Shown here in pieces: positions 727-46,907 of a DNA stretch of 64,000 nt. Every line of letters begins with the position of its first letter. Positions within the stretch are counted from its first letter, which is position 1. The notes under the pieces were generated by a model. The model worked only from the letters and a program-made list of their open reading frames with translations. It was not told the origin of the DNA and did not search any database. Made by a program: the position numbers and the translations under genes. The stretch covers positions 1,984,001-2,048,000 of the forward strand of contig NZ_CP046052.1 of the NCBI RefSeq assembly GCF_004802635.2. Reading direction: 5' to 3'. Source of the stretch: Methylocystis heyeri (GTDB lineage: Bacteria; Pseudomonadota; Alphaproteobacteria; Rhizobiales; Beijerinckiaceae).

Positions 727-1467
727 ATGTCCAACAGCTCGATCGCCTTCGGCAGCGGCGTTCTGATCGGCACCACGGCCTCGGGACCCATTCAGTTCGG
801 TTCGTTGCAGGATGTTTCCATCGATTTCAGCTTCTCGACGAAGCAGTTGATGGGACAATTTCAGTTTCCCGTCGCGGTGGCGCGAGGCGCGGGAAAAATT
901 TCCGGCAAGGCGAAATTCGCCAGTATCGACGGGCCGGTCCTAAATCAGATTTTCTTCGGCGCCAGCGCCGGCGCCGGGCAGAAATTGTGGTCTTACAATG
1001 AGGGGGCTAATGTCGCCGCCTCCTCCCCCTATGCCGTGAGCGTCGCCAACGCGGCCGCTTTCGATCAGAATCTCGGCGTGGTCTACGCCTCTTCCGGACT
1101 GCAGCTCACTCAGGTCGCCAGCTCGCCGGCCGTCGGGCAATACAGCGTCGCCTCGGGCGTCTACACATTCAACGCCGCCGACGCCGGCAAGGCGCTTCTC
1201 GTCAGCTACAGCTATACTCAAACCACCGGCGGCTCGAAGGCGGTGATCGCCAACCGGCAGATGGGAATCGCCCCTTCCTTCCAGATCGATTTCTATCAGT
1301 GCAACCCCAATGTGACGGGCGCGCAATGGTCCATGCGTCTCTACAATTGCATTTCCTCGAAGCTCAATATGGCGTCGAAGCTCGAGGCCTTCACCATACC
1401 GGAAATGGATTTCGAGGCCTTCGCCAACGCGACGAACAACATCGGCGAGCTGAACACCGCCGTCTAA
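727..1467 (+). CDS. Phage major tail (tube) protein
   Basis: This 246-residue, beta-rich protein has the low-complexity Ser/Ala/Gly/Thr composition usual for siphovirus tail tube subunits. It lies between the terminator-like gene and the tail assembly chaperone, the conserved place for the tube protein that polymerises around the tape measure. The N-terminus (SIDFSFSTKQLMGQ) and the middle segment with GVYTFNAADAG fit tube folds that carry an inserted domain. It starts 3 bases after the preceding stop. The tube role is inferred from position, size and composition. Confidence 0.65.
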   Translation: MSNSSIAFGSGVLIGTTASGPIQFGSLQDVSIDFSFSTKQLMGQFQFPVAVARGAGKISGKAKFASIDGPVLNQIFFGASAGAGQKLWSYNEGANVAASSPYAVSVANAAAFDQNLGVVYASSGLQLTQVASSPAVGQYSVASGVYTFNAADAGKALLVSYSYTQTTGGSKAVIANRQMGIAPSFQIDFYQCNPNVTGAQWSMRLYNCISSKLNMASKLEAFTIPEMDFEAFANATNNIGELNTAV

Positions 1468-1550
1468 ACCGACGATCGACGAAGCCGGCCATCCTCACCC
1501 CACGCAATCGCCCAAACGGGCGAAGCCGAGGTCGGCGTGGTCTGGCCAGC

Positions 1551-1985
1551 ATGAGGATCTTCCAGAAAATGACCCCCGATCCAAAAATCAATTGCGACGG
1601 CGCAGCGATCGTCGTCCTTGCCGGGCGGGAATGGTTTATTCCCGTTCTTGCGATGCGCCAATCGCGTATCGTCGTGCCTGGCCTGATGCGCCTGATGCCC
1701 TTGTTGGCCGAGTTGCAAAGCGGCCGGTCGAGCGCGATGGCGAAGCTCGGAGAAGAGGAATTCGATGTCATCCTCGATATAGTCCACGCGGCGCTGACGC
1801 GCGCCTATCCACATCTTACGCGCGACGCCTTCCTCGATTTCGCCATTTCGACTCCGGAATTAATCGGGGCGCTGGGAATAGTCACGCGGCAGACCGGATT
1901 CTTCAAGACGGCGGAACCCGGGGAGAAAAATGTGGGGGAAGCTCGTGGGGAGACGCCGGCTCCCCTGAATTCTTCGATCGGTTGA
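1551..1985 (+). CDS. Phage tail assembly chaperone, upstream part
   Basis: This 144-residue protein lies between the tail tube and the tape measure, where tail assembly chaperones coat the tape measure during tail polymerisation (lambda gpG/GT, GTA gp10). The start at 1551 gives a compact protein beginning MRIFQKMTPDP; longer reading of the frame runs back into the tube gene. The stop overlaps the next start as TGATG, and the next ORF is in the -1 frame, the geometry expected for lambda G/GT-type recoding. A run of five A residues lies at 1926-1930, but no canonical slippery heptamer is seen. Confidence 0.6.
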   Translation: MRIFQKMTPDPKINCDGAAIVVLAGREWFIPVLAMRQSRIVVPGLMRLMPLLAELQSGRSSAMAKLGEEEFDVILDIVHAALTRAYPHLTRDAFLDFAISTPELIGALGIVTRQTGFFKTAEPGEKNVGEARGETPAPLNSSIG

Positions 1986-2218
1986 TGACGCATTACTGCC
2001 AAAGCAGCGGCGAAGCGTGGACCGACCAACTGGAGGCGACGCTCACCTTCCCGCGCTATTTCGCACGGCAGGATTATTGGCGCGACTTTCCCCCGGTCCA
2101 TGTGCTGCTTCGCGCTATCGCGGTCGGCCTCGGCGCCTACCGGCCGCAGGATCGGGCAACCGAAAAGAAAGACGCTATGGCGACGCTGCGGGCGCTCTTC
2201 CCAGGCGGGAAGATTTAG
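1985..2218 (+). CDS. Phage tail assembly chaperone, downstream (T-like) part
   Basis: This 77-residue ORF starts at the ATG inside the TGATG overlap with the preceding chaperone and ends in a basic tail (FPGGKI). It contains aromatic-rich segments such as YFARQDYWRDFPPVH and is likely helical. In many siphoviruses and GTAs a small second chaperone product is made here by frameshifting or by a separate start. Both routes are possible, since the frame is -1 relative to the upstream gene and stays open well before 1985. Confidence 0.55.
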   Translation: MTHYCQSSGEAWTDQLEATLTFPRYFARQDYWRDFPPVHVLLRAIAVGLGAYRPQDRATEKKDAMATLRALFPGGKI

Positions 2219-2772
2219 CCCTGATCGGCATGTCTCCGAATGAAGGCGACGTAACGATCCATCCATTTTTGCAGGAATGCGCGGCTGCCTGGTCCGATCT
2301 CCCCGTTCTCCTCGAACAGCCCTTCTTTGTTCTGGATGAAAACCTCGGGCTGGCCCAAAGTCGGCGCATCGAGATAGGCGAGCATGACGCGCAGATGCTG
2401 CTGAGCTATCGCCGTCCCTATCGCGCCGATGGAAACGCCCATGATCGCAGACGGCTTGCCTGCGAAAGCGCTTCGACCATAGGGCCTGGAAGCGTGGTCT
2501 ATTGCGTTCTTCAGCACTCCGGAAACGGAGCGATTATATTCCGGCGTCACAAAAAGAAGCCCCTGGGCCGTCGAGATTTCCAGCTTCAGACGCTTGACGG
2601 CCTCAGCCTGCCTGTCGTCGTCGTCCTGATTGTAGAGAGGCAGATCGCCGATGGCGGCCTGGCGAAACAGGAACTCCGCCGGCGCCAGCCTTGCGACGCC
2701 GTCGGCGAGCTTGCGGTTGAAGGAATTGCGCCGAAGGCTCCCCACGAGCACGGCTATCTCATAACGGCTCAT
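2215..2772 (-). CDS. NADPH-dependent FMN reductase (chromate/quinone reductase-like)
   Basis: A 185-residue flavodoxin-like reductase of the ChrR/YieF/AzoR type, which reduces quinones, chromate or azo dyes with NAD(P)H and FMN in the cytoplasm. The phosphate-binding loop GSLRRNSFNRKL lies at residues 11-22 and the conserved TPEYNRSVSG flavin-contact motif near residues 76-85, followed by KNAIDHASRP. The start at 2772 gives the usual MSRYEIAVLVGS N-terminus. It is antisense to the tail genes and overlaps the chaperone stop by 4 bases, so it looks like a cargo ('moron') gene inserted between chaperone and tape measure. A bacterial origin is inferred. Confidence 0.88.
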   Translation of the reverse strand: MSRYEIAVLVGSLRRNSFNRKLADGVARLAPAEFLFRQAAIGDLPLYNQDDDDRQAEAVKRLKLEISTAQGLLFVTPEYNRSVSGVLKNAIDHASRPYGRSAFAGKPSAIMGVSIGAIGTAIAQQHLRVMLAYLDAPTLGQPEVFIQNKEGLFEENGEIGPGSRAFLQKWMDRYVAFIRRHADQG

Positions 2773-2872
2773 TGCGCAGCCTCCCTGTTCGAAAATCCCA
2801 ACCCCATATGTCGCGCCGGCTGGAGAAGGCGAGTTCAGCAAGGCGCCTTTCGCTTCAATTTGCGGAGTTCCC

Positions 2873-4129
2873 ATGATCGACGAAGTAACGGTCAAATTCG
2901 GCGCGGACGTCGCCGAACTCGAACAAGGAATCGCCAATGTGCAGGGCGCGTTGGGGGTGCTCGCCCCGCAGATCAAAAGCGTCGCGGACGGCCTCGCCGA
3001 GGCCGCGCAAAAGTCGGACCCGCTTTCAGGTCATTTCAAAAATGCCGCAGATAGCGTCTCGGGCGATCTCACAAACGCGCTGAAACTCGCAAAAACCGAA
3101 ATTGCGGGCAAAATCCAAGCCCAGCAGGATGCGCTGGCGCTCAAGAAGACGATCTACGACGGCGAAGTCAGTCTCAAGAACATCACCGAGGAAGAAAAGC
3201 TCGAGCTGGTGAAGAAGGCGACCCAGGAGGAATATGAGGCTCAACATGCGCTTTTGCAGAAGGAAGCCGAGCTTTCCGGGCAGAGCCTCGCCCAGAAGGA
3301 AGCGGCGCAAAACCGGGTGATCCATCTAGAGGCGACCCATCAAAGGCAACTGCAGCAATTCGCCAATGAATCCGCCCAGCAGCAGGCGCAAATCTGGCAG
3401 GATCTTTCCAGTCGCATCGGCCAGAGCATGTCGTCGTCCATCATGGGTCTGCTGCAGCACACCACTACCTTCCGCGAAGCTGCGCGCCAGATCGCCCTCC
3501 AGATCACGCAGTATTTCGTCAAGTCGGGCGCCGATTGGGTCTCCGAATACGCCATGACGATCGCGCGCAACATTGCGACCCATGTGATGGGCGAGCAGAC
3601 GATGACCGCGGCGACTCAGGCCGGCGTTGCGGAGCGTTCGGCCAGCGTCGCGGCGGGCTCGATCGCCGATCTCGCCAGCAAGGCTGCGGCCGTGCTCAAA
3701 AGCATCATCGCCTCATCCGCGGAAGCTTTCGCCGGCGTTTTCGGCTTCATGGCCCCGCTGCTGGGGCCTGCCGCGGCTGGTCCCGCAGCCGCGGCCCAGG
3801 CGACTGTCGCCGGAATGGCCAGCGTCGCGAGCTTCGACATCGGCGCCTGGAGCATCCCAGAAGACCAGCTGGCGATGGTGCACAAGAACGAACTCGTGAT
3901 GACGGCGAGCCAGGGCGAGGCTTTCCGCAATGTGCTCGACAACGCGGGCGGAAGCGGCAGGGGTTCCGACCTGCAGGTCCATGCCCCCGTGAATTTCCAT
4001 ATTCACGCCGTCGACTCTGAGAACGTCGCGAGATTTTTCCAAAGCAACGGCAAGGAGATCATGCGCGCCATGGCGAAACATGTGCAGGACGGCGCGCATC
4101 TCGGCTTGCGCGGGCTGAACCCGGCGTAA
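2873..4129 (+). CDS. Phage tail tape measure protein
   Basis: This 418-residue protein has the tape measure pattern. There is an N-terminal segment (VTVKFGADVAELEQGI), a long coiled-coil region around residues 60-180 with many K/E/Q, then an Ala/Gly-rich hydrophobic region (about 255-315) suited to membrane passage. The C-terminus carries FDIGAWSIPEDQLAMVHKNE, the GG-x-x-PGDxxLV-like end of GTA and lambda-like tape measures. At this length the tail would be short (tens of nm), since tape measure length sets tail length. A GCGGAG lies 7-12 bases before the ATG. Confidence 0.85.
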   Translation: MIDEVTVKFGADVAELEQGIANVQGALGVLAPQIKSVADGLAEAAQKSDPLSGHFKNAADSVSGDLTNALKLAKTEIAGKIQAQQDALALKKTIYDGEVSLKNITEEEKLELVKKATQEEYEAQHALLQKEAELSGQSLAQKEAAQNRVIHLEATHQRQLQQFANESAQQQAQIWQDLSSRIGQSMSSSIMGLLQHTTTFREAARQIALQITQYFVKSGADWVSEYAMTIARNIATHVMGEQTMTAATQAGVAERSASVAAGSIADLASKAAAVLKSIIASSAEAFAGVFGFMAPLLGPAAAGPAAAAQATVAGMASVASFDIGAWSIPEDQLAMVHKNELVMTASQGEAFRNVLDNAGGSGRGSDLQVHAPVNFHIHAVDSENVARFFQSNGKEIMRAMAKHVQDGAHLGLRGLNPA

Positions 4130-4216
4130 CGCGCTTATTCTCCACTGGTCGATCCGTTTCTTCCTCACCGCGAAGCGAGACTACCCTCCTCCTCCGAGGA
4201 GAAGGAATCCGCGCGC

Positions 4217-4240
4217 ATGATCGAATTGGTCCTCGCATGA
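4217..4240 (+). other. Seven-residue leader minicistron
   Basis: A strong ribosome-binding sequence (GAGGAGAAGG, about 4195-4204) precedes an ATG at 4217. That ATG opens a seven-codon ORF (MIELVLA) whose stop overlaps the start of the large tail gene as ATGA at 4237-4240. The long tail gene has no comparable ribosome-binding sequence of its own, so coupled re-initiation is the likely use. This is read directly from sequence; translation is inferred. Confidence 0.45.
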
Positions 4241-6705
4241 GCTTCCCCTACATCGGCGGAATCAACCTCATCCCCGCTTCCGGGGAGTTCGTCTACGACA
4301 CCGTAGCCTGGTCCGGGCGGCAGCCCGGCGGCGCAATGACGCCGATCAACAGCTACCATGCCCCCGGCGGATCGCGCACGGATGTTACGTTCGCGCTCGA
4401 TCAGTTGCAGGCTGCCCTGCCCAATTGCACGTCGGTGGCGCTGGTCGTGCAATGGATGGGCAATTCGCTCGACGCCTCGCAGTGCAATGTCTATCCGTCA
4501 TCCACTTTCATTGGCGGCGGGTTCCAACCCGCTGCGGGCGGGAGCGATTCCTGGCGCGTTTCCGACGTCACTCTGCAGACCAGCGGCCTGATACCCATCA
4601 GCCGCCCTGATGGCGTGCATGCGAGCTATGGCGGCACGCCGTCGGATCAATCGGTCGTGCGCTGCCTTCAGGAGATCAAACGACGCGGCCTCGCGGCCTC
4701 GCTCTATCTGATGATGAACATGGACGCGGCGGGCCAGCCCTGGCGCGGGCTCGTCACTTACGCGAGCGACATATCAAGCGCAGCCTCCGCAGCGGTGACG
4801 TCTTTCCTCGGCTCAGCCGCGATATCGCAGTTCAGCCGCGACACCGCCGATCTCACCGTCCATTATTCTGGAAGCGTCCTGGACTTCACCTATCGCCGCT
4901 TCGTGCTGCATTACGCTAATCTGGCGGCTATCGCAGGCGGCGTCTCCGTCTTTGCGATAGGCTCGGAACTGCGTGGGCTGGAGGCGATAAGAGGACCGGC
5001 CTGGACCCCTGGTGGCTCGATCGACGCGAGCGGCTGCGCAAAATGGGATTATCCTTTTGTCGCCGGCCTCATAACCCTTGCAAGCGATTGCCGCGCCGTT
5101 TTCGATGCGGCAGGATTGACCAAGAATCTGGCCGCGCGCCAGAACCTCGTCGCCTACAGCGCAGACTGGTCGCAATGGACCGGCGTTCAGCACGCAGGCG
5201 TCTCAGGAATTTTCCCGCATCTCGACGCTCTCTACGCATCGGCGGACATCGACTTCGTCTCCATAGACAACTACATGCCGCTTTCCGACTGGACCACGGG
5301 AGCGGGCGGGCTCGACGCCTTGAACTGGCGGGCTCCCGCGCCCACGACCTGGCCCGTCAGCGCTCCCGGCGCCATCGGCCTAGGCCTGAAGAGCGCGCCC
5401 GACATGCACGACAAAGACTATCTGAAGGCCAATATCGAGGGCGGCGAGAAATACCATTTCTGGTACGGCGATTATTCCGCAGCTCCCGGGCTCGACCCCA
5501 ACGGAACCCTGCAGCAGGTCACCTCTCCGCAAGGCGACAGGCGCGCGCAGGCGCGCAACCCCTATTACGCCGGACAGCAATTGCTCGCCTTCAAGCAATT
5601 GCGCTGGTGGTGGAACAACCCGCACCGGGCGGTGTATGACTCCGGGGACGGCGCGGGAGTCGCGCCGCACGGCCCCCAGACGCAATGGGTTCCGCAATCG
5701 AAGAGCATCGGCTTTCTCGAATACGGCTTTCCCACCAGCGACCGCAGCGCCAATCAACCCAATATATTCTTCAATCCGCGATCCGTTTCGGGGGGAACGC
5801 CGTTCTGGTCGGTTTGGAACGCCGCCAAAACCGCGCCTCTCGTCGACGACTCCCTGACCCTCATCGCCCTGCAGGCCATATGGGAATATTGGACCGTTGA
5901 CGGCAGGAACGAGACCTCCGCCACGAACCTGCCGATGATCGCAACCGATCTCATGTTCGCCTGGTGCTGGGATGCGCGGCCGCTGCCAGATTTTCCCTTG
6001 CGGCAAGACATATGGAGCGACGGCGCCAATTGGCCCAACGGCCATTGGCTCAACGGAAAGTTCCCCGCACTGCCCGCGCCTGCCGCGACGGCGCCGCCGA
6101 GCTACGGCCCTTTTCCGACCTTCCCTGAGCTTATCGGGCTCGGCTGGTCGATCGTGCTGAAGCCGAAATTCGCCACGCAAGGACATGACCGCGCATCCGG
6201 CAAATCCTCGCGCCGCGCAAAAATGCGATGGCCGATCTATGAGATCGAGCTCAGTTACGACTTTCTGCGCGGCGACGGCACCCAGGAGATGCAGCAAATC
6301 TCGGGGTTCTTTGCGGCGCAGCAGGGACAGGCCCAACCCTTCTGGCTCGCGCCGCCCGGGCTCTCCGAGATCGCGGGTCAAGCGATCGGCGTCGGCGACG
6401 GCGTCACTACCGCCTTCGCTCTCACCCGCACGACCGGCGGCTTCAGCGAGCCGCTCGCGGGCGTCTCCAGCGTGAGCGCGCTCTATATCGACGGCGTGGC
6501 GACGCCCTCTTCCACCTGGAGCCTCTCCAGCGGATATCAGCCGGTCGTGACGCTGGCGAGCGCGCCGTCCCCGGGCTCCGTCATCAGCATGGACGCTTCG
6601 GCCTTGTGGCTGTGCCGCTTCAAGGACGAAACGCTCAGCCTCGAGCAATTCGCATACAAGCTGTTCCGCTCCAAAAGCGTGAAACTCGTCACCGTCAAGC
6701 TGTGA
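4237..6705 (+). CDS. GTA TIM-barrel tail protein fused to a DUF2460 domain
   Basis: This 822-residue tail protein starts with MSFPYIGGINLIPASGEF. Residues about 30-600 match the GTA TIM-barrel-like domain, a glycoside-hydrolase fold in GTA gp15 ('megatron'): FVSIDNYMPLSDW, a GGEKYHFWYGD segment, RNPYYAGQQLLAFKQ and FLEYGFPTSDRSANQPN. Residues about 635-822 look like DUF2460, the distal-tail domain of GTA gp12 (QAIGVGDGVTTAF, then SVKLVTVKL at the end). In the Rhodobacter GTA these domains sit in different proteins, so this is a rearranged tail architecture. It probably forms the baseplate hub and touches peptidoglycan or capsule. Domain names are from recall. Confidence 0.82.
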   Translation: MSFPYIGGINLIPASGEFVYDTVAWSGRQPGGAMTPINSYHAPGGSRTDVTFALDQLQAALPNCTSVALVVQWMGNSLDASQCNVYPSSTFIGGGFQPAAGGSDSWRVSDVTLQTSGLIPISRPDGVHASYGGTPSDQSVVRCLQEIKRRGLAASLYLMMNMDAAGQPWRGLVTYASDISSAASAAVTSFLGSAAISQFSRDTADLTVHYSGSVLDFTYRRFVLHYANLAAIAGGVSVFAIGSELRGLEAIRGPAWTPGGSIDASGCAKWDYPFVAGLITLASDCRAVFDAAGLTKNLAARQNLVAYSADWSQWTGVQHAGVSGIFPHLDALYASADIDFVSIDNYMPLSDWTTGAGGLDALNWRAPAPTTWPVSAPGAIGLGLKSAPDMHDKDYLKANIEGGEKYHFWYGDYSAAPGLDPNGTLQQVTSPQGDRRAQARNPYYAGQQLLAFKQLRWWWNNPHRAVYDSGDGAGVAPHGPQTQWVPQSKSIGFLEYGFPTSDRSANQPNIFFNPRSVSGGTPFWSVWNAAKTAPLVDDSLTLIALQAIWEYWTVDGRNETSATNLPMIATDLMFAWCWDARPLPDFPLRQDIWSDGANWPNGHWLNGKFPALPAPAATAPPSYGPFPTFPELIGLGWSIVLKPKFATQGHDRASGKSSRRAKMRWPIYEIELSYDFLRGDGTQEMQQISGFFAAQQGQAQPFWLAPPGLSEIAGQAIGVGDGVTTAFALTRTTGGFSEPLAGVSSVSALYIDGVATPSSTWSLSSGYQPVVTLASAPSPGSVISMDASALWLCRFKDETLSLEQFAYKLFRSKSVKLVTVKL

Positions 6706-7356: not shown

Positions 7357-7432
7357 CGCATCCCTTTCGAACATCCATTCGTACGCTTTGCCGCACCTTT
7401 ATCCCGTCTCGCTTCGCATCGATCGGATCGTC

Positions 7433-8305
7433 ATGAAACAAGCTTCTCCAGCGTTGGTCGCTTTTCTCGCCGAGGCGCGCGGAACCCGGGACTGCGCCAT
7501 CGCCTTCGCCGAATGCTTCACATTCACGCAGGCGACGGGCGCCGTATTCAGCTACACCAACGCCGACGTTCCCGTGATCTACCGCGGCAAGGTCTTCCTC
7601 GCCAACGGGCCTCTCGTTTCCGGGCTAAAATACCGCGCCTCCACGGGCCTCAATGTCGACAGGCAGGAGATCGTCATCGCGGCAAGGCCGGAGGATCTCG
7701 CCGGCTGGACGCCTTTACTCGCAGCGCTCCGGGAAGGTTTCTTCGACGGCTGCGTCATCCAGAGGGATCGGGTCTTCTTTTCCGATTTCGTCGGCGGAAC
7801 CCTGGTCGACGGCGTGACGCTGTTTCACGGGCGATTGTCGACAGTGGACGAAGTAGGCCGCACCAGAGCGCGCATCACTGTGGCGAATGAACTCGTGCTG
7901 CTCGACGTGAACATGCCGCGCAATATTTTCGCGCCGACATGCATACACACGCTTTACGATCAAGGCTGCAAGATTCCGTCAGGGGCCTTCTCGACGAATG
8001 ATGTCGTCGGCTCCGGCTCGACCAGAGCGCTGATCAATTTCGCCGGCGCGCAGGCGGCTCACGCGCAGGGAACGCTCTTGTTCAGCTCGGGAGCGAATTC
8101 GGGCCGGCGCTGCGCCGTCAAATCGGTTGTTCCCGGCGTCTCCGTCTCCCTGATTTATCCGCTCCCGACCGCCCCAGCGGCAGGCGATGCGCTCGTCGCC
8201 TTCTGGGGCTGCGACCACACTATGGCGACCTGTCAGGCCCGCTTCTCAAATCTCCCGAATTTTCGTGGCTTTCCATTCGTTCCGCCGCCGCAGATGGCCA
8301 TGTGA
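7433..8305 (+). CDS. DUF2163/BR0599-family phage tail hub protein
   Basis: This 290-residue protein matches GTA gp13-type hub proteins (DUF2163 N-terminus plus Phage_BR0599 C-terminus). Marks are YRASTGLNVDRQEI, VIQRDRVFFSDFVGG, the cysteine-bearing FAPTCIHTLYDQGCKIP and the C-terminal GCDHTMATCQARFSNLPNFR. Conserved cysteines in this family can bind an Fe-S cluster in the tail hub. I chose the ATG at 7433 (MKQASPALVAF) over an upstream TTG because family members begin close to this segment. Confidence 0.85.
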   Translation: MKQASPALVAFLAEARGTRDCAIAFAECFTFTQATGAVFSYTNADVPVIYRGKVFLANGPLVSGLKYRASTGLNVDRQEIVIAARPEDLAGWTPLLAALREGFFDGCVIQRDRVFFSDFVGGTLVDGVTLFHGRLSTVDEVGRTRARITVANELVLLDVNMPRNIFAPTCIHTLYDQGCKIPSGAFSTNDVVGSGSTRALINFAGAQAAHAQGTLLFSSGANSGRRCAVKSVVPGVSVSLIYPLPTAPAAGDALVAFWGCDHTMATCQARFSNLPNFRGFPFVPPPQMAM

Positions 8306-8362
8306 GAGCCGGCCCAACGCGCCGGGCTACGTCCTATCGAGAAAGCGAAGCGGAGGCCCCCA

Positions 8363-14689: not shown

Positions 14690-15607
14690 TCAATGGTTGT
14701 ACGCGCCGACTATTTTTTCTATTGCTCGCTCGACCCTTCTGATGAGTCGATGGAGGGTAGGCAGAATGGGCTGAAACTGGAAAGGTTGGGACTCGCCGAA
14801 GCAGAGAATAAAAGTCGGTTGGAACTCTGTCTCCTTTGCGAAAGGGACAATCGCGCGTCTGGCAGCTCGGTTGCCGCCGAGTTGGATTATAAATATTTCC
14901 GGCTGAATAGGAACTATAAATGTTTCCTTGGTTCCGAAAATTCGGATACTAGAATCTATCTTATTGATGTCGCTGGCTGCAAGATGCGGAACCATTCCCA
15001 CCGGGATGATGATCTTATGCTTGTCGTTAACGTCAAGCCATTGAAGCTCCCAAAGTTCTTCGCATCCCCCAGGATAAGGCTCAAGCGCCTCTATCTCAGC
15101 GACAACATTTTCTCCGGCCAACTTTATCTGTCTACTTTCAAGCGTTCCTTTAAGTCGGTCATAGCTCTTGGCAATAGGGAAGTAGAGCCCATCTGGGTTG
15201 GTAACCAAATGTCCAATCATACTGAAAATCAAAAGATCCAAGGCCGATCTCATGTTATGGATCGCATCGCCTAGGATAAGGGAAATCTGTTCGGGGATGG
15301 GGCAATAGGTTTTGATGCTGATGGTGCGTGTTGCGGACTTTGGATCTTGTCTCGCAATCAATCGAAAGGGCTTTTGGGCCATGAAAGCCTCCATTTCCCT
15401 GTTAAGATCGTTGACGTGCTGCTTGGCGCGTTCAATCTTTAGTTTTGCGCCATAAGCGACGTCATCTGTCTTCGAGAGCAAGCTAGCACCATGAAAGATA
15501 TAGAAGTGTTCACCAATGAGGAGATCGAGCAGCGAATGATGGCTGGTATTCGTCGAGCCTTGCACATGCCTCCTACCCCGACAAAAATTATTATCGGGGC
15601 GTCGCAT
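14690..15607 (-). CDS. Orphan cargo protein with GDAIHN-RSALD motif
   Basis: This 305-codon ORF, transcribed against the phage genes, is visibly richer in A+T than its surroundings, a sign of transfer. It has a helical segment (AKLKIERAKQHVNDLNREME), then the motif ILGDAIHNMRSALDLLIF seen in many uncharacterised bacterial proteins, then mixed alpha/beta sequence. The true start is unclear. The first ~50 residues look unlike coding sequence of the family, and no good ribosome-binding site is seen at 15607, so a start nearer 15470 is possible. No function assigned. Confidence 0.6.
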   Translation of the reverse strand: MRRPDNNFCRGRRHVQGSTNTSHHSLLDLLIGEHFYIFHGASLLSKTDDVAYGAKLKIERAKQHVNDLNREMEAFMAQKPFRLIARQDPKSATRTISIKTYCPIPEQISLILGDAIHNMRSALDLLIFSMIGHLVTNPDGLYFPIAKSYDRLKGTLESRQIKLAGENVVAEIEALEPYPGGCEELWELQWLDVNDKHKIIIPVGMVPHLAASDINKIDSSIRIFGTKETFIVPIQPEIFIIQLGGNRAARRAIVPFAKETEFQPTFILCFGESQPFQFQPILPTLHRLIRRVERAIEKIVGAYNH

Positions 15608-37910: not shown

Positions 37911-38717
37911 TCACGCATTCCCCTCGCCCAACCTCTTCCTCTGCTCGCGGAGTTCGGAAAGGTGTTCTGCAAGCGACCTCTGCTGGAAGCTCGGCTCTTC
38001 AATGTTTATGCTAATGATTGTAGGAATTGACATTGTCGTCACAAGTGATGCGCTCGTCTTAGACTTAACGCGGGAAAGATGATCGAGGGTCAGATTGATG
38101 ATTTCCTCAGAAAAATCGTTCCTTATACGAAGAAGTTTTGGCCGCACAACATCTAAGACGGACTGTCCATACTTCTCAGCCTCCTCTTTCAAGGGTATTT
38201 TACCTTTGTGAATTACCTCGTTACGAAATTCCGTGGAACCGCGGTCAAGCAACTGCGGTTTCTCGCCGTAGTGGGAAGCCCATTGAAAAATAAAAGACCC
38301 AAGTTGGCGTTCAGATTGGGAGGAGACAAGCTTCCAGCACTCAGTAAATACCTCCTCTGATTTCGTATCTCTTAATATAAATACATGTGTAGCAAATTCG
38401 AAAAATCGCTCCATGCTTGACGTAAATGACGACACTGCGTCTCGATAATAACCATCTATTATCGCGTTTGCACCTATATCAAAAAGAACCTCAAACTTTT
38501 GTTCTTGTAGTAAAATAGTGGATTTATGCCCCTGAACACAGGTTACCTCATAGCAACTATCATCTCGGACCTCAACGCGTTGAAAGTTGAGAGGAGCAAC
38601 CCATCCTGCCAAGCGCTTCGCGCATTCTACACAGACGATCGCAAGGCGCACGCAGCGGTTTTCCTTCCATAACTCATACGCATTCTGAGAAGCGGACCGC
38701 AATGGCCCCTTGAGCAT
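37911..38717 (-). CDS. HEPN-like protein of unknown function
   Basis: A 268-residue protein in an AT-rich stretch, divergent from the 1134-residue gene. An N-terminal half has paired cysteines (IVCVEC, residues 28-32; C55, C60) that could bind zinc. At residues 165-170 it has RNEVIH, the Rx4-6H signature of HEPN ribonuclease-like domains, in a helical region with YRDAVSSFTSSMERFFEF before it. The C-terminus is helical and charged. The low GC compared with both sides supports recent transfer. Function unknown; HEPN membership needs a profile search. Confidence 0.62.
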   Translation of the reverse strand: MLKGPLRSASQNAYELWKENRCVRLAIVCVECAKRLAGWVAPLNFQRVEVRDDSCYEVTCVQGHKSTILLQEQKFEVLFDIGANAIIDGYYRDAVSSFTSSMERFFEFATHVFILRDTKSEEVFTECWKLVSSQSERQLGSFIFQWASHYGEKPQLLDRGSTEFRNEVIHKGKIPLKEEAEKYGQSVLDVVRPKLLRIRNDFSEEIINLTLDHLSRVKSKTSASLVTTMSIPTIISINIEEPSFQQRSLAEHLSELREQRKRLGEGNA

Positions 38718-39003
38718 TAGAAAGCGATTTTGATGAATTTCAAACCCTAAAGTAGGACAGATCTAATTTTTCAGTTGTCGCCGTTATGTCCGCTTCTGGC
38801 GCGAAGCGGCCGTGTGGCAAGGGCTGCTCCTGACCCAAAAGCGCCCTTCATCGCCCATGCCATTCCCGTCTTCACGTCGCAACCTAGGATTTGGCAGCTT
38901 TCTGCGAATGTTACGGCCCATAGGAGCTGGCGATGTCAGTCTGAGTTGAGCATAAGATGGGCTCCAATCTCGCATTCCCGAGCGACGCGTCGATGAGGTT
39001 TCC

Positions 39004-42000
39004 ATGGACAAATCCCTCAACGCTTTTGATCTTTCGCCCGAGCAAGGACAGACAGCGTCTCTGCTGCAACGCTTGTTCGGCAGCGCGATCGCAAACCGCT
39101 ACGTCGATTTTTGCCGCTTGGCCGCAGGTGCCTTTGCCCTCAATGTTTCGAGGCCGATGGCCGCTCACGCACTGCGTGAACTCGAATCCATGCTTCGCCG
39201 CGCCCTCGAAGTGCCGATGGAAGCGAGGGCGCTGGAGACTGTCGAGGACGTCAAGAAAATTGCTGAAGCGCGCAAGCAATTGCGGGCGCTCGGATTTGAG
39301 GCTCCGATAATCGACCGTGCCGCGAGAGAACTAAAGCCTCGTCTGAACCACAGGCAGCAAATCCAGCAGATCGTATCTCGCCTGGGTCGCGCGCCGGATG
39401 GCGACATTGCGAATCTTTGGACTTCTCTGACCGAGAACTTCGGTGTAGCCCACCAACGATCTTTCCACCGTTCGCTACAAGTCGATGACGATTTCCGTGA
39501 AAAATATCAACGGCCGTTCGATACTGTTATTCGTGGCATCGCTTTCGCCCTCCAAGGCCGCTATGTCGTCCTCATGCGCCGCGTGGAAGAGTTGGCCACG
39601 ATGTCAGACCGCGAGCAAGCGGCCAAGTTGTTTGCGAGCGAAATTCCCGGAGCATTGTCGCTCCAACGGCACTTCTTCGATAAGCTGCAGACCGGCGACT
39701 GGCTGCCGCATCTCGCGAAGCAGGGCTTGTTTGGTGAGCCGCTAGCCGGACCCGACGAAGGCGCAAGTGGCGGAATGCGCTTTCGCCAATGGCCTGCCGG
39801 AAATTACCTCCTGCGCATGGCGAAATCCTCGGACGCCGTAACACGGCGGGCGGTCGCGGAAGCCCTGCGCAAGGTCGGTTCTTCCAAACACCCTGACGTC
39901 CAATACGACGGCCTTGAAATCCTGGCGACATTACCGCCCGAGGATTCGGCGCCATTGGCTGACCTCGCGGTGTCGTGGCTTAGCCCTGGCACGAGGAACT
40001 GGCCGATGCAGAAGCCGGAAGCGCTAATCAATCAATTGGCCCAAGGCGGACATCGCGAAGCGGCTCTGAAGGTCGCTAGCGCCCTGCTGCAGATTTGGGA
40101 ACAGAATGGACATTTGGTGACGCACTATGCCCACCACATGTACGAATATCATCTTCCGTCTCTTGTCAGCCCGCTCACGGCATGCGGCGGCGAAGATGCG
40201 CTCCGCCTTTTCGCTGATCTCCTGCACAAAGCCGCCCGAATCACCGGAAGGATCGACTCCAGCCATTACTCGATGCGGCCGATTGGCGACGACGAGATGG
40301 CGCGGCACGACGTTTACGAGGCGCTTATCACTGCGGTGAGGCGATCCGCGGAAATGCTCATCCAAGAAGATGCAGTGCGCACGCGACGCGCTGTCGAACT
40401 CTTGGCCGGTTACGAGCCGAAGATTTTCGTCCGCCTTTATCTGCATGTTCTGGCATCAAATCCGGCGGGGGCGCCAGATCTGGCTACAGCATACTTGACC
40501 AATAATTCGTTGATCCAAGCCGGTTGGTGCCGCGATGAATACTCGGGGCTCGCCTTGGCTTGGTTTCCATCCCTTGCTGCCGAGGACCAAGCGAAAGTGC
40601 TTGGCGTCATCGACGCGCTGCCGGATAAGTATTTGGAGGCTTGGAAAGCGCGATTTGAAGAGGATACGAAGAAAGTGCCGGTTGCTGACGATGAAAGGAA
40701 GTTTCGTGCTGCTACGTTTCAGGATCTAGTCTGGAAATGGCGAGCCGCCTTGCCAGTCGAACGCCAACAGGCGCTCGACCGGATCGTACAAGAACTCGGC
40801 GATCCAGACGCGCGGAAGGAGCAGCTCTTTGCACAGCTGGAGAGCCCGCTTCACGGAACCGATTTTTTGTCGCGGCCGATTCCTGAGATCGCAAAATTTC
40901 TGCAGACCTGGACTCCGCAAGTCGAGGGTTCAAGCCAAACCGTCACTGCGCTCGCGCAGGAATTACTGATTGCTACCTTTAACAATCCGGAAGCCTATGC
41001 CGCCGAGGCCGTGCAATTCGTGGGGCTCAAGCCGGTCTATGTTCGCCACATGCTAGAAGGCCTCGCGATGGCGGCAAACAACCGCCGAAGGTTTGGCTGG
41101 GGTGGCGTGCTAAGATTGATTGCGGCTGCCATTGAGCGGCACGACGAGCCGATCGATCCAACAACGCTTTTCGATGGTGACGACCGAGATTGGGGTTGGG
41201 CAAGCGTAAAGACAGCCGAATTACTGGCCGCCGGCTTGCGTCAGGGGGCCGAGGGCATCGCGTTCGAGCATGCCACTCAGGTTCGTTCGATCGTTGAAAA
41301 GCTCATTCGGATTGCTCCCAATGAGCCCGAGATCGAGGACTTTGAGGAACGATATCGGCGCGACCCGTTCTTCGCGGCCCAAGCGACGCTGCGTGGTTTG
41401 GCTGTCGAGCTGTGCATCCTCATGATGTTCTGGCTCAGCAAAGACCGGTCGTCACCGTTGGGGGCAGAGCCGGGAAATGCGTTGAGCAATTCGCCCAACG
41501 TCCGCGATTTCTTCGTGGGTCAGCTGGCGGATCGCAAGGCGTCCGGCCGTATCCCGCGCGCGGTCATGGGCCGCTACCTGTTCTATCTGTTTTATTTCGG
41601 CGAGGACTGGCTCAGGGCCCACCTGGGCTCACTGTTTCCGCAAGAAAATGAAGCTTTGCGCGGCGCGGCTTGGCACGGACATCTAGCGCACGATCAGCAG
41701 CCAATCCTCGATCTAGTGCCGGAACTCCGTCTTTGCCTCACCGAAGAGATCGCGCGCCTTGCCGATACCGGCGATCAGCTTGACCGAGAATTCCGCCGGG
41801 AACGGTTCGCCGATTACATGATGGTCCTGTATCTTTGGGGCGGTCTTCCTGACGATTTGCTGGAAAGCTTCTGGGAGCAGGCCTCATCCGCGGTCCGTCA
41901 ACACTGCATGTGGTATTTGGGTACGCAGTTGGACGCTCCTAGTATGCCTGACGCGATGCGTACGCGTGGTTTTGCTTATTGGGAGCGCCGTCTTGATGCC

Positions 42001-42408
42001 GCTCGGCGCTCCGATAATCCCGATCCTTTTCGCGCCGAGTTAGGCGCCATCGGCCAATGGACGTTCCGCAATCGCATCGATGATCATTGGCTCGCCAATC
42101 AGCTATTCGAGATGTTGCACGCCGGCTTTGTGCCCACCGATGCCTTCAGCGTCGTGGACTGGCTCGCGGAGATCGTGCCGCGAGATGTCGACCGCGCGGT
42201 TAAGATTTTGTCCGCTTTGCTCAGGAATCCGCGCATCGATCAGTGGGCCTACATGACCCAACAAGTACCCATCCGCACCATCCTCGCCGAGGGCCTTGCG
42301 CACGGCACGCAGGAGACCATCAGCAGAGTGCACGAGTTGATCGGCTTCCTATCGTCCGTAAACGAGACCAGCTATATGGATCTTATCCAACCACCCACCG
42401 ATGAATGA
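39004..42408 (+). CDS. Very large all-helical protein of unknown function
   Basis: A 1134-residue soluble protein, with GAGG 7-10 bases before the ATG. The sequence is helical nearly throughout with HEAT-like stretches: SSDAVTRRAVAEALRKVGSS, QYDGLEILATLPPEDS, YLTNNSLIQAGWC, EWASVKTAELLAAGLR-type repeats. There are no visible ATPase, nuclease or transmembrane motifs and no signal peptide. Its base composition is a little less GC-rich than that of the neighbours. No family recognised. Large helical-repeat proteins next to HEPN genes occur in defence loci, which is only a contextual hint. Confidence 0.7.
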   Translation: MDKSLNAFDLSPEQGQTASLLQRLFGSAIANRYVDFCRLAAGAFALNVSRPMAAHALRELESMLRRALEVPMEARALETVEDVKKIAEARKQLRALGFEAPIIDRAARELKPRLNHRQQIQQIVSRLGRAPDGDIANLWTSLTENFGVAHQRSFHRSLQVDDDFREKYQRPFDTVIRGIAFALQGRYVVLMRRVEELATMSDREQAAKLFASEIPGALSLQRHFFDKLQTGDWLPHLAKQGLFGEPLAGPDEGASGGMRFRQWPAGNYLLRMAKSSDAVTRRAVAEALRKVGSSKHPDVQYDGLEILATLPPEDSAPLADLAVSWLSPGTRNWPMQKPEALINQLAQGGHREAALKVASALLQIWEQNGHLVTHYAHHMYEYHLPSLVSPLTACGGEDALRLFADLLHKAARITGRIDSSHYSMRPIGDDEMARHDVYEALITAVRRSAEMLIQEDAVRTRRAVELLAGYEPKIFVRLYLHVLASNPAGAPDLATAYLTNNSLIQAGWCRDEYSGLALAWFPSLAAEDQAKVLGVIDALPDKYLEAWKARFEEDTKKVPVADDERKFRAATFQDLVWKWRAALPVERQQALDRIVQELGDPDARKEQLFAQLESPLHGTDFLSRPIPEIAKFLQTWTPQVEGSSQTVTALAQELLIATFNNPEAYAAEAVQFVGLKPVYVRHMLEGLAMAANNRRRFGWGGVLRLIAAAIERHDEPIDPTTLFDGDDRDWGWASVKTAELLAAGLRQGAEGIAFEHATQVRSIVEKLIRIAPNEPEIEDFEERYRRDPFFAAQATLRGLAVELCILMMFWLSKDRSSPLGAEPGNALSNSPNVRDFFVGQLADRKASGRIPRAVMGRYLFYLFYFGEDWLRAHLGSLFPQENEALRGAAWHGHLAHDQQPILDLVPELRLCLTEEIARLADTGDQLDREFRRERFADYMMVLYLWGGLPDDLLESFWEQASSAVRQHCMWYLGTQLDAPSMPDAMRTRGFAYWERRLDAARRSDNPDPFRAELGAIGQWTFRNRIDDHWLANQLFEMLHAGFVPTDAFSVVDWLAEIVPRDVDRAVKILSALLRNPRIDQWAYMTQQVPIRTILAEGLAHGTQETISRVHELIGFLSSVNETSYMDLIQPPTDE

Positions 42409-42560
42409 GGCCGCGGCCTGCCTCTTTGGCTCAGAGGCAAGGCAGCGTCGCGGAAGGTCCGCCTTTGGCGCATTGGCGAAATTCGAACTGACCCACTACC
42501 GGGCCTCCTAACACCGATTCAATCCGAACCGGTAATTCTCCAAGAGGCGTTGTGGCCCAC

Positions 42561-42645
42561 CCTTCGAGACGCCCGCTGCGCGGGTCTCAGGGTGAGGGAC
42601 CTGGTTTTTTCGACACGGCCGCGCGGGCAATTTTCCGCGCGGCCG
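42561..42645. repeat. Intergenic palindromic elements downstream of the antiporter gene
   Basis: CCCTTCGAGACGCCCGCT starts an element seen again near 58938, typical of dispersed Rhizobiales repeats. Next to it CGGCCGCGCGG and CCGCGCGGCCG (about 42616-42645) form an 11-bp stem with an 8-base loop. No T run follows on either strand. Confidence 0.6.
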
Positions 42646-43883: not shown

Positions 43884-44210
43884 GTTGGTTTTCTCCCTAT
43901 TTGTTCAGCGGACGTCGCTATTTATTGAAAAGGATGAGCGCCGATCGCCCTCGGCGAAGAGACGCGCGCAAGGGCCGGCGCGATCGGAAGCGAAGCCTCC
44001 GCGCCGACGGCGCTCTCGCGCCTTCTTTGAAGGCGCGTCGAAGACGATTGAGTTTTTGGGGCGCTGGTTTCGAGGCACAAAAACGGACTCCTGGCGCGAG
44101 AATCAACCAGGAGTCATCAGCCCCGAGGGCGGTTAAAGGCGAACTCCATCGCCTTGCACCCATCTAAGCTCAAGTCGCGTCTTTTTGTCAATTTTTTGAT
44201 GGAGCGATGA
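43884..44210. other. Intergenic region with hairpins
   Basis: This GC-rich gap contains a perfect 9-bp hairpin with a 3-base loop (CGCGCCTTC, 44017-44025, with 44029-44037) and the terminator at 44080-44114. The part nearest 43884 must hold the antiporter promoter. No gene is visible. Confidence 0.55.
44080..44114 (-). terminator. Rho-independent terminator of the secreted glycosidase-like gene
   Basis: On the minus strand ACTCCTGG and CCAGGAGT pair perfectly over a 12-base loop and are followed by CCG and five T. It lies about 100 bases after the stop at 44211. Confidence 0.72.
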
Positions 44211-46574
44211 CTATTCGGTCGGCGATGAGGAGACCTGCACGGCCGCCCCGGCGCTCGTCGTGACCAGTTGAAGCTCCGCCTCCGTCCACACCGCTGTCCC
44301 CGTGAATGTCGGCGCCCCAGTGCTGTCCAGCGGCGCCGGCGCGAAGGCAGGGTTGGCATAATTCGCCCTGGGCCGGGTGTAACGCACCTGCCATTGCTGA
44401 TTTGCCCCGGCCTTTTGCAGGCCGGCAAGCGTCATTTTGGGCCCTGCCTGATCCGCTTTCGTAGCAATGTCGATGTAAGTGCGGCTTACGAGGACATTGC
44501 GGGAGCTCGCCAAGGGGGCGCCGTCGTTGCTGGCCAGAATGACCGTGGCGAATTTATTCGTATTGGTCGTCGGGAAGCGCAAGACCTTGAGTCCGGCCGG
44601 CGCATTCCTGTCGAAATTGCCGCTGAAGGCTTCGGCTTGGGGCGACGAAACGGTCAGTTGCTGGCGCGCGACATCCTTGATGATCTGCCCGGTGTCCGAG
44701 ACCAGAGGATTGGTCGGCAAAGTCGTCATATACTTTGCGCTCGCCTGGGTCCCGGGCACGGTTCCATAGGCTTTGCGGATGGCGGAGATATCCGCCCAGC
44801 CCGGCTTGGGCAGATATTTCGCCTTGGGCGGCCATTGCCCGGCGTCGTTGGTCCCGTCGGGCGAGTAAGGCGCGTCGACATAGATCGTGATCGGCGATGT
44901 GGACGGGGCGATCATGCCGTTGCGGAAGATCAGGCCGGCGGTCCGCATATGATCGAGCTTTTGCCCGTCCTGCCACAACCAGCCGAGATAATTGTTGTAA
45001 TTGTCCGAGGCGGAATCGGGGTCCCGGGTGAGCGGAAACTCCTCGGCTTCCTTCACGCCCCAGCCATCCGCGCCCATGCCCAGGACGACATTGCTGTCGT
45101 CGATATAGAGGTTTCCGCCCTGGGTCGCCGAATACCAGGCGAAAGACGACCAATTGTGCAGGCTGCCATATGCGGCGGTGGCCACCATCATCATGCTGCG
45201 ATGCATGGTGTCATTGGCCGTGTTGGCAGGGTCGTACCAGTCGAGCATATTGACTTCGCCGATCATCTGCGGCCGATCGACGAAAGCCTTTTGCGACGAA
45301 ACCTCATATACGAAGTCGTTCAACACCCCTTCCGAAACGCCTTCGGAAGCATATCTGTGGCGTTGGCTGTCGGACCGCGTGAATCCTTCGACCACGAACG
45401 GGTCCATATAGGTGTGGTTGTCGCTATGCGACGACAGGTCGTGATCGAGCCTGGCGTCATCCTCGCTGCGCCACAGATTGGAAAAGCTCAGATTGATCGC
45501 ATAACCGAGCGAAGCGATCTTCTGTTTCATTCGTTGGATGAATTTCTGATCGAGGCCGGTCAGAAAGGCGATAGCCTGCTGCTGTCGCGTGCTGGATCCG
45601 TTGACTGCCTGATACAAGTTGGTTCTGCTCTGCCCGCTGAACGCGTACCATGCCGACTGGATTTCGTTGTTGAAATAGATGATGGCGCCGAGGCTGGGCG
45701 GGAACGGGACGACCCCGCCGTCCGAATTGACGAGCCCGTCGAAATGATGTGCGTTTGCAAAAAGATAATAGGATGAAGACTCGTTGACGACCTCCATCGT
45801 CGCGACTTGCGTATTCTGGCCGTAGGCCAATGCGGAATAGGGGTTGACGTGCGTCAGCAGCGTTCCGACGAACTCCTCGTAGAGACGCGCGCTGCGCTCG
45901 TCGATGGCCGGCAGGAATTTCCATTTGTCGAACGTATTTTGCCAATAGCCGTTGCCATAGGTGGAGCCTGTGCCGGCATAGCCGCCGGTATCAATGTTGA
46001 ACAGGTAATTGCCCCAATTGTTCATCGCAGAAATGGCGTTGCGCCAATTGGCGTCATCGGAGGAGTTGACGCTGTAGATCGCCTGATCGGCGGGCGTGAA
46101 GGTTCTGCCGAACTCAATGCTCATCATCAGGTAAATGCCGTTGCGCTGCAGTTCGGCGTTTAGAAAATCGAACCGATCCCATGCTCTCGCGTCGGCGCCG
46201 GATGGATAGGCGCGGCTCGTGCCCTGGGGAAATCCATTGCTGTCGTAACCATACGTCGCGAGAGATTCGATCGGCGTCTTACCGCCCTGAGTATTCAAAT
46301 AATTGTTGTTGTCTTCAGACATCAGCATCTTGTGCCAGCGCACCAGATTGACGCCGCGCGCCGCAAGATTCTTAGCGAAGGCGGCGGCAGTGGCGTGATC
46401 GGGGTAGAATTCGACCAGATCCACACCCCAGAAACGCACCTGCTTCCCGCTTGGATCGATAAAGTTCTGGTTCTGGATCGTCAGCTTTGGCAAAGACGCC
46501 GGCGTCTGCGCGACCGAGACCCCAGATATAAAACTGAAAGCAAATGAAAAAACAATTCGCGACATGTTTTGCAT
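44211..46574 (-). CDS. Secreted GH clan A-like TIM-barrel protein (cellulase-like)
   Basis: This 787-residue protein has a signal peptide (RIVFSFAFSFISGVSVAQ). After a short N-terminal part (LTIQNQNFIDPSGKQVRFWGVDLVEF) comes a TIM barrel typical of clan A glycosidases: LAARGVNLVRWHKM, the putative acid in TMEVVNESSSYY (Asn-Glu) and a possible nucleophile in QMIGEVNMLDW. A beta-rich C-terminal part (about 580-787) follows. Substrate unknown. Start 46574 has GGAGAAG at a good distance; the 20-codon upstream extension has none. It stands alone, next to an AT-rich upstream region. Confidence 0.8.
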   Translation of the reverse strand: MQNMSRIVFSFAFSFISGVSVAQTPASLPKLTIQNQNFIDPSGKQVRFWGVDLVEFYPDHATAAAFAKNLAARGVNLVRWHKMLMSEDNNNYLNTQGGKTPIESLATYGYDSNGFPQGTSRAYPSGADARAWDRFDFLNAELQRNGIYLMMSIEFGRTFTPADQAIYSVNSSDDANWRNAISAMNNWGNYLFNIDTGGYAGTGSTYGNGYWQNTFDKWKFLPAIDERSARLYEEFVGTLLTHVNPYSALAYGQNTQVATMEVVNESSSYYLFANAHHFDGLVNSDGGVVPFPPSLGAIIYFNNEIQSAWYAFSGQSRTNLYQAVNGSSTRQQQAIAFLTGLDQKFIQRMKQKIASLGYAINLSFSNLWRSEDDARLDHDLSSHSDNHTYMDPFVVEGFTRSDSQRHRYASEGVSEGVLNDFVYEVSSQKAFVDRPQMIGEVNMLDWYDPANTANDTMHRSMMMVATAAYGSLHNWSSFAWYSATQGGNLYIDDSNVVLGMGADGWGVKEAEEFPLTRDPDSASDNYNNYLGWLWQDGQKLDHMRTAGLIFRNGMIAPSTSPITIYVDAPYSPDGTNDAGQWPPKAKYLPKPGWADISAIRKAYGTVPGTQASAKYMTTLPTNPLVSDTGQIIKDVARQQLTVSSPQAEAFSGNFDRNAPAGLKVLRFPTTNTNKFATVILASNDGAPLASSRNVLVSRTYIDIATKADQAGPKMTLAGLQKAGANQQWQVRYTRPRANYANPAFAPAPLDSTGAPTFTGTAVWTEAELQLVTTSAGAAVQVSSSPTE

Positions 46575-46907
46575 GATTACTTCTCCGCGTGCGTATGATG
46601 CTGCGCGTAATGTAAATGCTACAACATTACTCAAGACGTTAGACTATCAATTCGGGTTGTCAATTGGTCATTTTGGCTCATGTTTTCTACAATTGTATAA
46701 TTATTATATTTATTCAAATAGATTTCGATATTACAGAGCTATATCATGCTAATTTTAAACAAGCTGCAATTGCGGCAGACGCCTTTAAAGCTAAAACCGA
46801 CCCGTCCTCGCTCGTGCAACCGCCTCTGCGCCGGACGCGAGACCTTACGCGACGGCCAAACCGGGCTTTGTTTCAGGGCGGGGACATCGGTTCGCAGCGC
46901 GGCGCAT
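46575..46907. other. AT-rich promoter region of the secreted glycosidase-like gene
   Basis: Bases about 46600-46760 are unusually AT-rich for this genome and hold a TTGACA on the minus strand (46663-46658), likely promoter and upstream element of the gene ending at 44211. The rest (46780-46907) is GC-rich with no visible gene. Confidence 0.45.

Follow-up and report, generated by a model that had tools for sequence, protein, structure and literature searches.

Two adjacent genes of Methylocystis heyeri, a predicted zinc-finger HEPN ribonuclease and a DSR1-like solenoid protein, are probably independently acquired single-gene candidates for phage defence

Two divergent genes in a 64,000-nucleotide stretch of Methylocystis heyeri DNA (hereafter, the window) are probably 2 independently acquired, single-gene candidates for phage defence rather than the parts of one system. 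The product of the smaller gene is supported by sequence and model evidence as a HEPN RNase (predicted) carrying an N-terminal zinc finger, whereas the larger gene belongs to a family with the DSR1 architecture in which the effector has probably been replaced. The initial annotation had read the 2 genes together as a possible defence or stress island; the defence reading is plausible for each gene alone but not for the 2 as a unit.

The longest open reading frames (ORFs) of the small gene (37911-38717, minus strand, 268 aa) and the large gene (39004-42408, plus strand, 1134 aa) were located, as initially described, in divergent orientation between ars genes and an antiporter gene, with a gap of 286 bp between them. 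One flank encodes ArsR (PF12840, E = 1.7e-14) and a glyoxalase, with further ars genes identified beside ArsR from ORF translations only, and the other flank encodes a Na/H exchanger (PF00999, E = 2.5e-33). When bounded by the probable GTG start of the small gene, the divergent intergenic region spans positions 38652-39003, in which a sigma-70-like scan revealed no promoter-like consensus match; the 2 weak matches in the scanned region both fall outside this interval, and shuffled sequences gave as many. Against a background of 29 other ORFs in the window, the small gene has a GC content of 0.463 (z = −4.3) and a GC3 of 0.483 (z = −3.3), and the large gene has a GC content of 0.583 (z = −1.1) and a GC3 of 0.652. 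The 2 genes are indeed unlike each other in base composition, as had been noted, but only the small one is a compositional outlier. Its low GC content could mean that it arrived recently and has no function. No clean empty site was found in relatives from the genus, where the antiporter and ars genes occupy different positions. Near the 2 genes, the part of the window to which the defence-library scan was confined, no other defence genes were identified.

Some further features of the window are recorded here in their own right. A second strongly AT-rich ORF (14690-15607, minus strand, 305 aa; GC content of 0.479, z = −3.9) is possibly a recent acquisition. Just 3′ of the large gene (approximately 42555-42605) lies a short palindrome (CGAGACGCCCGCTGCGCGGGTCTCAGGGTGAGG), which has many matches in relatives from the genus and resembles a dispersed REP-type repeat. 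Behind the antiporter gene, a stretch of approximately 70 bp (44083-44170) recurs with 83-96% identity near an antiporter homologue in 2 relatives, flanking the homologue on both sides. Positions 44211-46634 (minus strand) encode a predicted secreted protein (807 aa) that falls into no Pfam family and whose N-terminus reads glycoside-hydrolase-like.

The proposal that the 2 genes form a conserved system did not survive a survey of gene neighbourhoods. The large gene is absent from all 23 loci that carry the small gene, and a convincing small gene was found neither in the 14 loci carrying the large family, its fragments or the sensor module (L003-L008 and L093-L100) nor in 5 loci of the SIR2-bearing Dsr1 type (L066-L070). 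Close to a large gene, the small protein has a single weak match, in L095, which covers 59 aa at 27% identity (E = 0.008) and is not convincing. Because the genes are not found together elsewhere, which the initial annotation had itself named as the sign of a chance pairing, we consider their adjacency fortuitous. A single unit, in which the solenoid would sense infection and release or activate the HEPN RNase, is thus highly improbable: the genes are adjacent, divergent and closely spaced, and each family is defence-like alone, but neither family is convincingly represented at any locus of the other, the base compositions differ strongly, and the small family also occurs in Bacillus and Paenibacillus, for which no homologue of the large protein was present in the collections searched.

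Over almost its entire length, the small protein matches, and belongs to, phrog_19381 (E = 5.4e-69), and PHROG 19381 is annotated as having unknown function. We aligned the window copy with 16 phage-borne relatives, which are 30-49% identical to it, yielding 17 sequences; residues are numbered here according to the 268-aa ORF. Codon 23 corresponds to Met in the 16 relatives and to GTG in the window copy, with AAGGAAA just upstream of this GTG. Because of the Met in the relatives and this upstream motif, the true start is probably the GTG at 38651, and the probable coding sequence (37911-38651, minus strand) would specify 246 aa comprising the zinc finger and the HEPN domain. The paired cysteines pointed out previously are present and belong to a putative zinc site, of which the first half, C29-x2-C32 (38622-38633, minus strand), and the second half, C60-x3-H64 (38526-38540, minus strand), are invariant at both Cys and at the Cys and His, respectively, in all 17 sequences. 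A Pfam match of the small protein to a RING zinc finger (E = 0.13) was below the cut-off and was set aside. The acidic motif expected in the first HEPN helix, E103-R104-x2-E107-x3-[K/R] (38385-38411, minus strand), has E103, R104 and E107 conserved throughout the alignment, with residue 111 being K or R in 14 of the 17 sequences and H in the window copy. The HEPN catalytic-type motif, R165-N166-x3-H170 (38208-38225, minus strand), corresponds to the RNEVIH at residues 165-170 on which the initial reading rested, and its R, N and H are kept in 17/17 sequences. Since this invariance was computed across relatives sharing only 30-49% identity with the window copy, the motif is not a chance occurrence.

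HEPN proteins are marked by a polar residue following the Arg and, in many but not all families, by an upstream Ex3[KR] (PMC3710099). Both marks are found in the small family, as N166 after R165 and as the invariant E107 with K/R at +4 in most members. The AlphaFold2 model of the small protein, built from the 17-sequence alignment (pLDDT 85, pTM 0.82), has as its top Foldseek match in the PDB the structure 2q00 (probability 0.99, target-normalised TM 0.62), with an E value of 0.098 that is not significant alone; 2q00 is an HEPN-T (Parep1/8) structure (PMC3710099). Against viral structures in BFVD, the same model gave no convincing Foldseek match. At the profile level, the PADLOC Csx1/Csm6 (CARF+HEPN) model matches 7 of the 17 family members (best E = 1.4e-4), other members match the PADLOC CARF-HEPN and Cas13a models, and one matches Pfam HEPN_MAE_28990 (E = 0.005); no curated Pfam HEPN model scores above the cut-off for the small protein itself. 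The R-N-x3-H motif, the upstream Glu, the best PDB match and the weak HEPN profile matches jointly support the HEPN-like nature suggested at the outset, none of them being decisive alone. The R-N-x3-H motif and the Ex3[KR]-type motif are common to the small protein and the HEPN RNases considered (Rx4-6H families, 2q00, Csx1/Csm6 and MAE_28990-type proteins), and the helical bundle may be shared as well. By contrast with these, the small protein carries a C-C-C-H zinc finger at its N-terminus and has neither a CARF domain nor a nucleotidyltransferase partner. Within the known superfamily, the small proteins would constitute a separate HEPN family and are not assigned to any existing named HEPN system; the assignment of a zinc finger and a HEPN domain is new for PHROG 19381. 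The protein is predicted to act as a metal-independent RNase in dimeric form.

A combination of tblastn and pattern scans revealed the small family in the Bacillus phages SPbetaL4 and SPbetaL6 and on plasmids of Paenibacillus, Sphingobium, Rhizobium and Methylobacter. IMG/VR contributed 17 loci, from phages or prophages, and within the order the family occurs in 3 of 397 genomes, Methylocystis heyeri counted. A literature search yielded no publication dealing with the small family or SPbetaL4. In 21 loci, the small gene stands alone as cargo amid varying phage, plasmid or chromosomal genes, and no neighbour family recurs among these loci save in sister phages (L015 and L022) and as single chance pairs. 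Given that HEPN domains are common in toxin-antitoxin systems (PMC3710099) and that phages and prophages harbour the gene, the protein could instead be the toxin of such a system or serve a phage in regulating host RNA. We regard this as rather unlikely. The failure of any neighbour family to recur makes a cognate protein antitoxin improbable, and a regulatory function in the phage life cycle is conceivable. The reading that we prefer is that prophages and plasmids carry the small gene as solitary cargo (a "moron") and that it most likely blocks superinfecting phages through RNA cleavage; the HEPN domain would probably target the RNA of infected cells, with the zinc finger serving for binding or stability. 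At the end of one phage contig (L020), a gene for a SIR2_2-domain protein (7428-8327) adjoins a relative of the small gene, which suggests a defence hotspot.

The large protein gave no match above the cut-off in Pfam or NCBIfam, and the statement that it has no known domain holds for these libraries but not for PADLOC: its residues 609-896 (40828-41691, plus strand) align with positions 729-998 of the Dsr1 model PDLC04166 (E = 3.3e-16). It had also been described as all-helical. The AlphaFold2 model, computed from 2 sequences, is helical throughout but of low confidence (pLDDT 51); the Foldseek matches of this model to generic HEAT solenoids (importins, CAND1) were rejected as evidence of family membership. 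The full-length homologues of the large protein include copies with 40-58% identity, and the one that is 58% identical, encoded in a Hyphomicrobiales MAG (L003), matches PDLC04166 with E = 1.8e-18. The same model also matches the C-terminal part of 2 haloarchaeal plasmid proteins with AAA/STAND N-termini, L007 and L008 (E values of 1.7e-18 and 8.8e-37). Consistently, an hmmsearch with the large-family profile finds these 2 proteins with E values of 2e-38 (profile positions 254-1084) and 2e-28 (profile positions 292-1004), and hhalign of the large family against L008 gives a probability of 98.7%. PDLC04166 also recognises the C-terminus of L066, a canonical Dsr1 with a SIR2 domain that scores 2217 bits against PDLC02183, and the region matched there overlaps that of the large protein. 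Because Dsr1 and STAND relatives match there, the long C-terminal part of the large protein appears to be a sensor-type solenoid common to several defence proteins.

Like DSR1 (PDLC04166, PDLC04167 and PDLC02183), the large protein is a single polypeptide in the range of approximately 1100-1300 aa with a homologous C-terminal helical region; unlike DSR1, it has no SIR2 domain, the place of which is taken by a different N-terminal domain of approximately 200 aa. The match to the Dsr1 model begins only at model position 729 in the large protein and 512 in the homologue. Pfam and PADLOC scans found no SIR2 in the window protein, L003 or L004, and the SIR2-bearing proteins L066 and L068-L070 were readily detected; since SIR2 was looked for and is absent, we do not file the large protein as DSR1. 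With STAND NTPases (Avs-like proteins and PADLOC candidate PDC-M54A, represented by L007 and L008), it has a C-terminal solenoid of approximately 800 aa in common. The N-terminal half of L007 and L008 is an AAA/STAND-type ATPase, whereas no P-loop STAND NTPase domain was found in the large protein by Pfam and PADLOC scans, and we therefore do not file it as STAND either. Next to the haloarchaeal STAND protein of L007, which shares the C-terminus of the large protein, lies an ApeA-type gene (3327-4640) encoding ApeA_NTD1 and HEPN_Apea domains.

The N-terminal domain (residues approximately 1-200; 39004-39603, plus strand) contains no SIR2 and no match to a known domain in Pfam or NCBIfam. We compared 7 full-length members of the family (the window protein, L003, L004 and L093-L096), which are 25-58% identical to the window protein. 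In this alignment, residues 1-200 contain 27 invariant columns, 16 of them polar, and residues 201-1134 contain 63 invariant columns, of which 10 are polar, corresponding to an 8-fold higher density of polar invariant positions in the N-terminal domain (Fisher p = 5e-7). The polar invariant residues include D35, H55, R58, E59, R65, H116, H150, R152, D161 and R186. This pattern fits an active site and makes the domain a candidate new effector, although the model of the large protein is too poor to define the fold of this part. The only match to the N-terminal domain outside the family (G718, E = 8e-4) reads TPR-CHAT-like and was judged to be a chance similarity. We also considered whether the domain might be a diverged HEPN RNase, in which case the large protein alone would constitute a DSR1-like system whose effector is an RNase. 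The domain is modelled as helical and has a first-helix motif resembling Ex3R (E/D at residue 61 and the invariant R65), H116, H150 and R152 are invariant, and relatives join SIR2 or STAND N-termini to the same type of sensor. However, H150 is not preceded by an Rx4-6H motif, hhalign against the small HEPN family gives a probability of 0.1%, no match was obtained among Pfam HEPN families, the PDB gave no convincing match, and the model is of low confidence; a HEPN nature of the domain is unlikely.

The large family is sparsely distributed. No further copy was detected among the remaining 396 genomes sampled in the order or the 288 others sampled in the class. Within one Bradyrhizobium-type genus, so labelled because of Bradyrhizobium plasmid fragments, the family is present in 14 of 186 genomes, with 4 copies intact and the others containing stops or reduced to fragments. 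The broken copies, all from this genus (L097, L099, L100 and L082-L092), show frameshifts, stops and fragmentation, a sign of fast turnover. No member of the family was found in viral contigs or phage records. Pfam analysis of neighbouring genes, which were picked by eye and without a random-locus control, identified GmrSD and an Eco57I-type methylase in L093, Mrr-nSTAND3 and SIR2 in L094, a KAP NTPase in L098, and AbiEi/AbiEii together with a DUF4011-helicase-REase protein in L100. The L003 homologue lies between a phage integrase gene and a phage capsid gene, and a Streptomyces copy of the large gene adjoins TnsA/TniB-type transposition genes. The L003 contig as a whole is a mixed mobile element, in which a TrwC relaxase-helicase gene (729-3356), the phage integrase gene, the large homologue and phage capsid and protease genes occur together. 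Patchy spread, decay and neighbours of these kinds are typical of defence genes. An alternative is that the large protein works as a helical scaffold inside the cell, in housekeeping or under stress: generic HEAT solenoids, importins and CAND1 among them, are similar to its poor-confidence model, and ars genes adjoin the locus. Such a role is improbable in view of the very patchy spread (1 of 397 genomes in the order and, in the one genus, 14 of 186 with decayed copies), the prophage and defence-gene neighbourhoods, and the homology to DSR1.

The solenoid of the large protein probably senses a phage component. The NADase of DSR2 is activated by a phage tail tube protein (for example, PMC10981675). 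By analogy, we infer that the HEAT-like solenoid of the large protein would bind a phage protein as its trigger and switch on the N-terminal domain; here, the SIR2 NADase would be swapped for a domain of approximately 200 residues, the invariant His, Arg, Glu and Asp of which look like an active site. We tentatively suggest, as a possibility that falls somewhat short of an even chance, that members of the large family make up a new class of immune sensors acting as single proteins, combining a DSR1/STAND-type solenoid with an unrecognised enzymatic effector that is not SIR2, TIR, STAND or a known nuclease, and that the sensor has been shuffled among at least 3 unrelated front ends across bacteria and archaea.

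Collectively, these results remove the two-gene system as a false lead and provide the widespread, phage-borne PHROG 19381 with a testable assignment, that of a predicted zinc-finger HEPN RNase with a named catalytic pair. If the suggested role of the large protein is true, its N-terminal domain would represent an immune effector not yet described, with a short list of candidate residues for mutagenesis, and the DSR1 sensor solenoid would be a reusable module combined with at least 3 front ends, namely SIR2, STAND and the N-terminal domain of the large protein.
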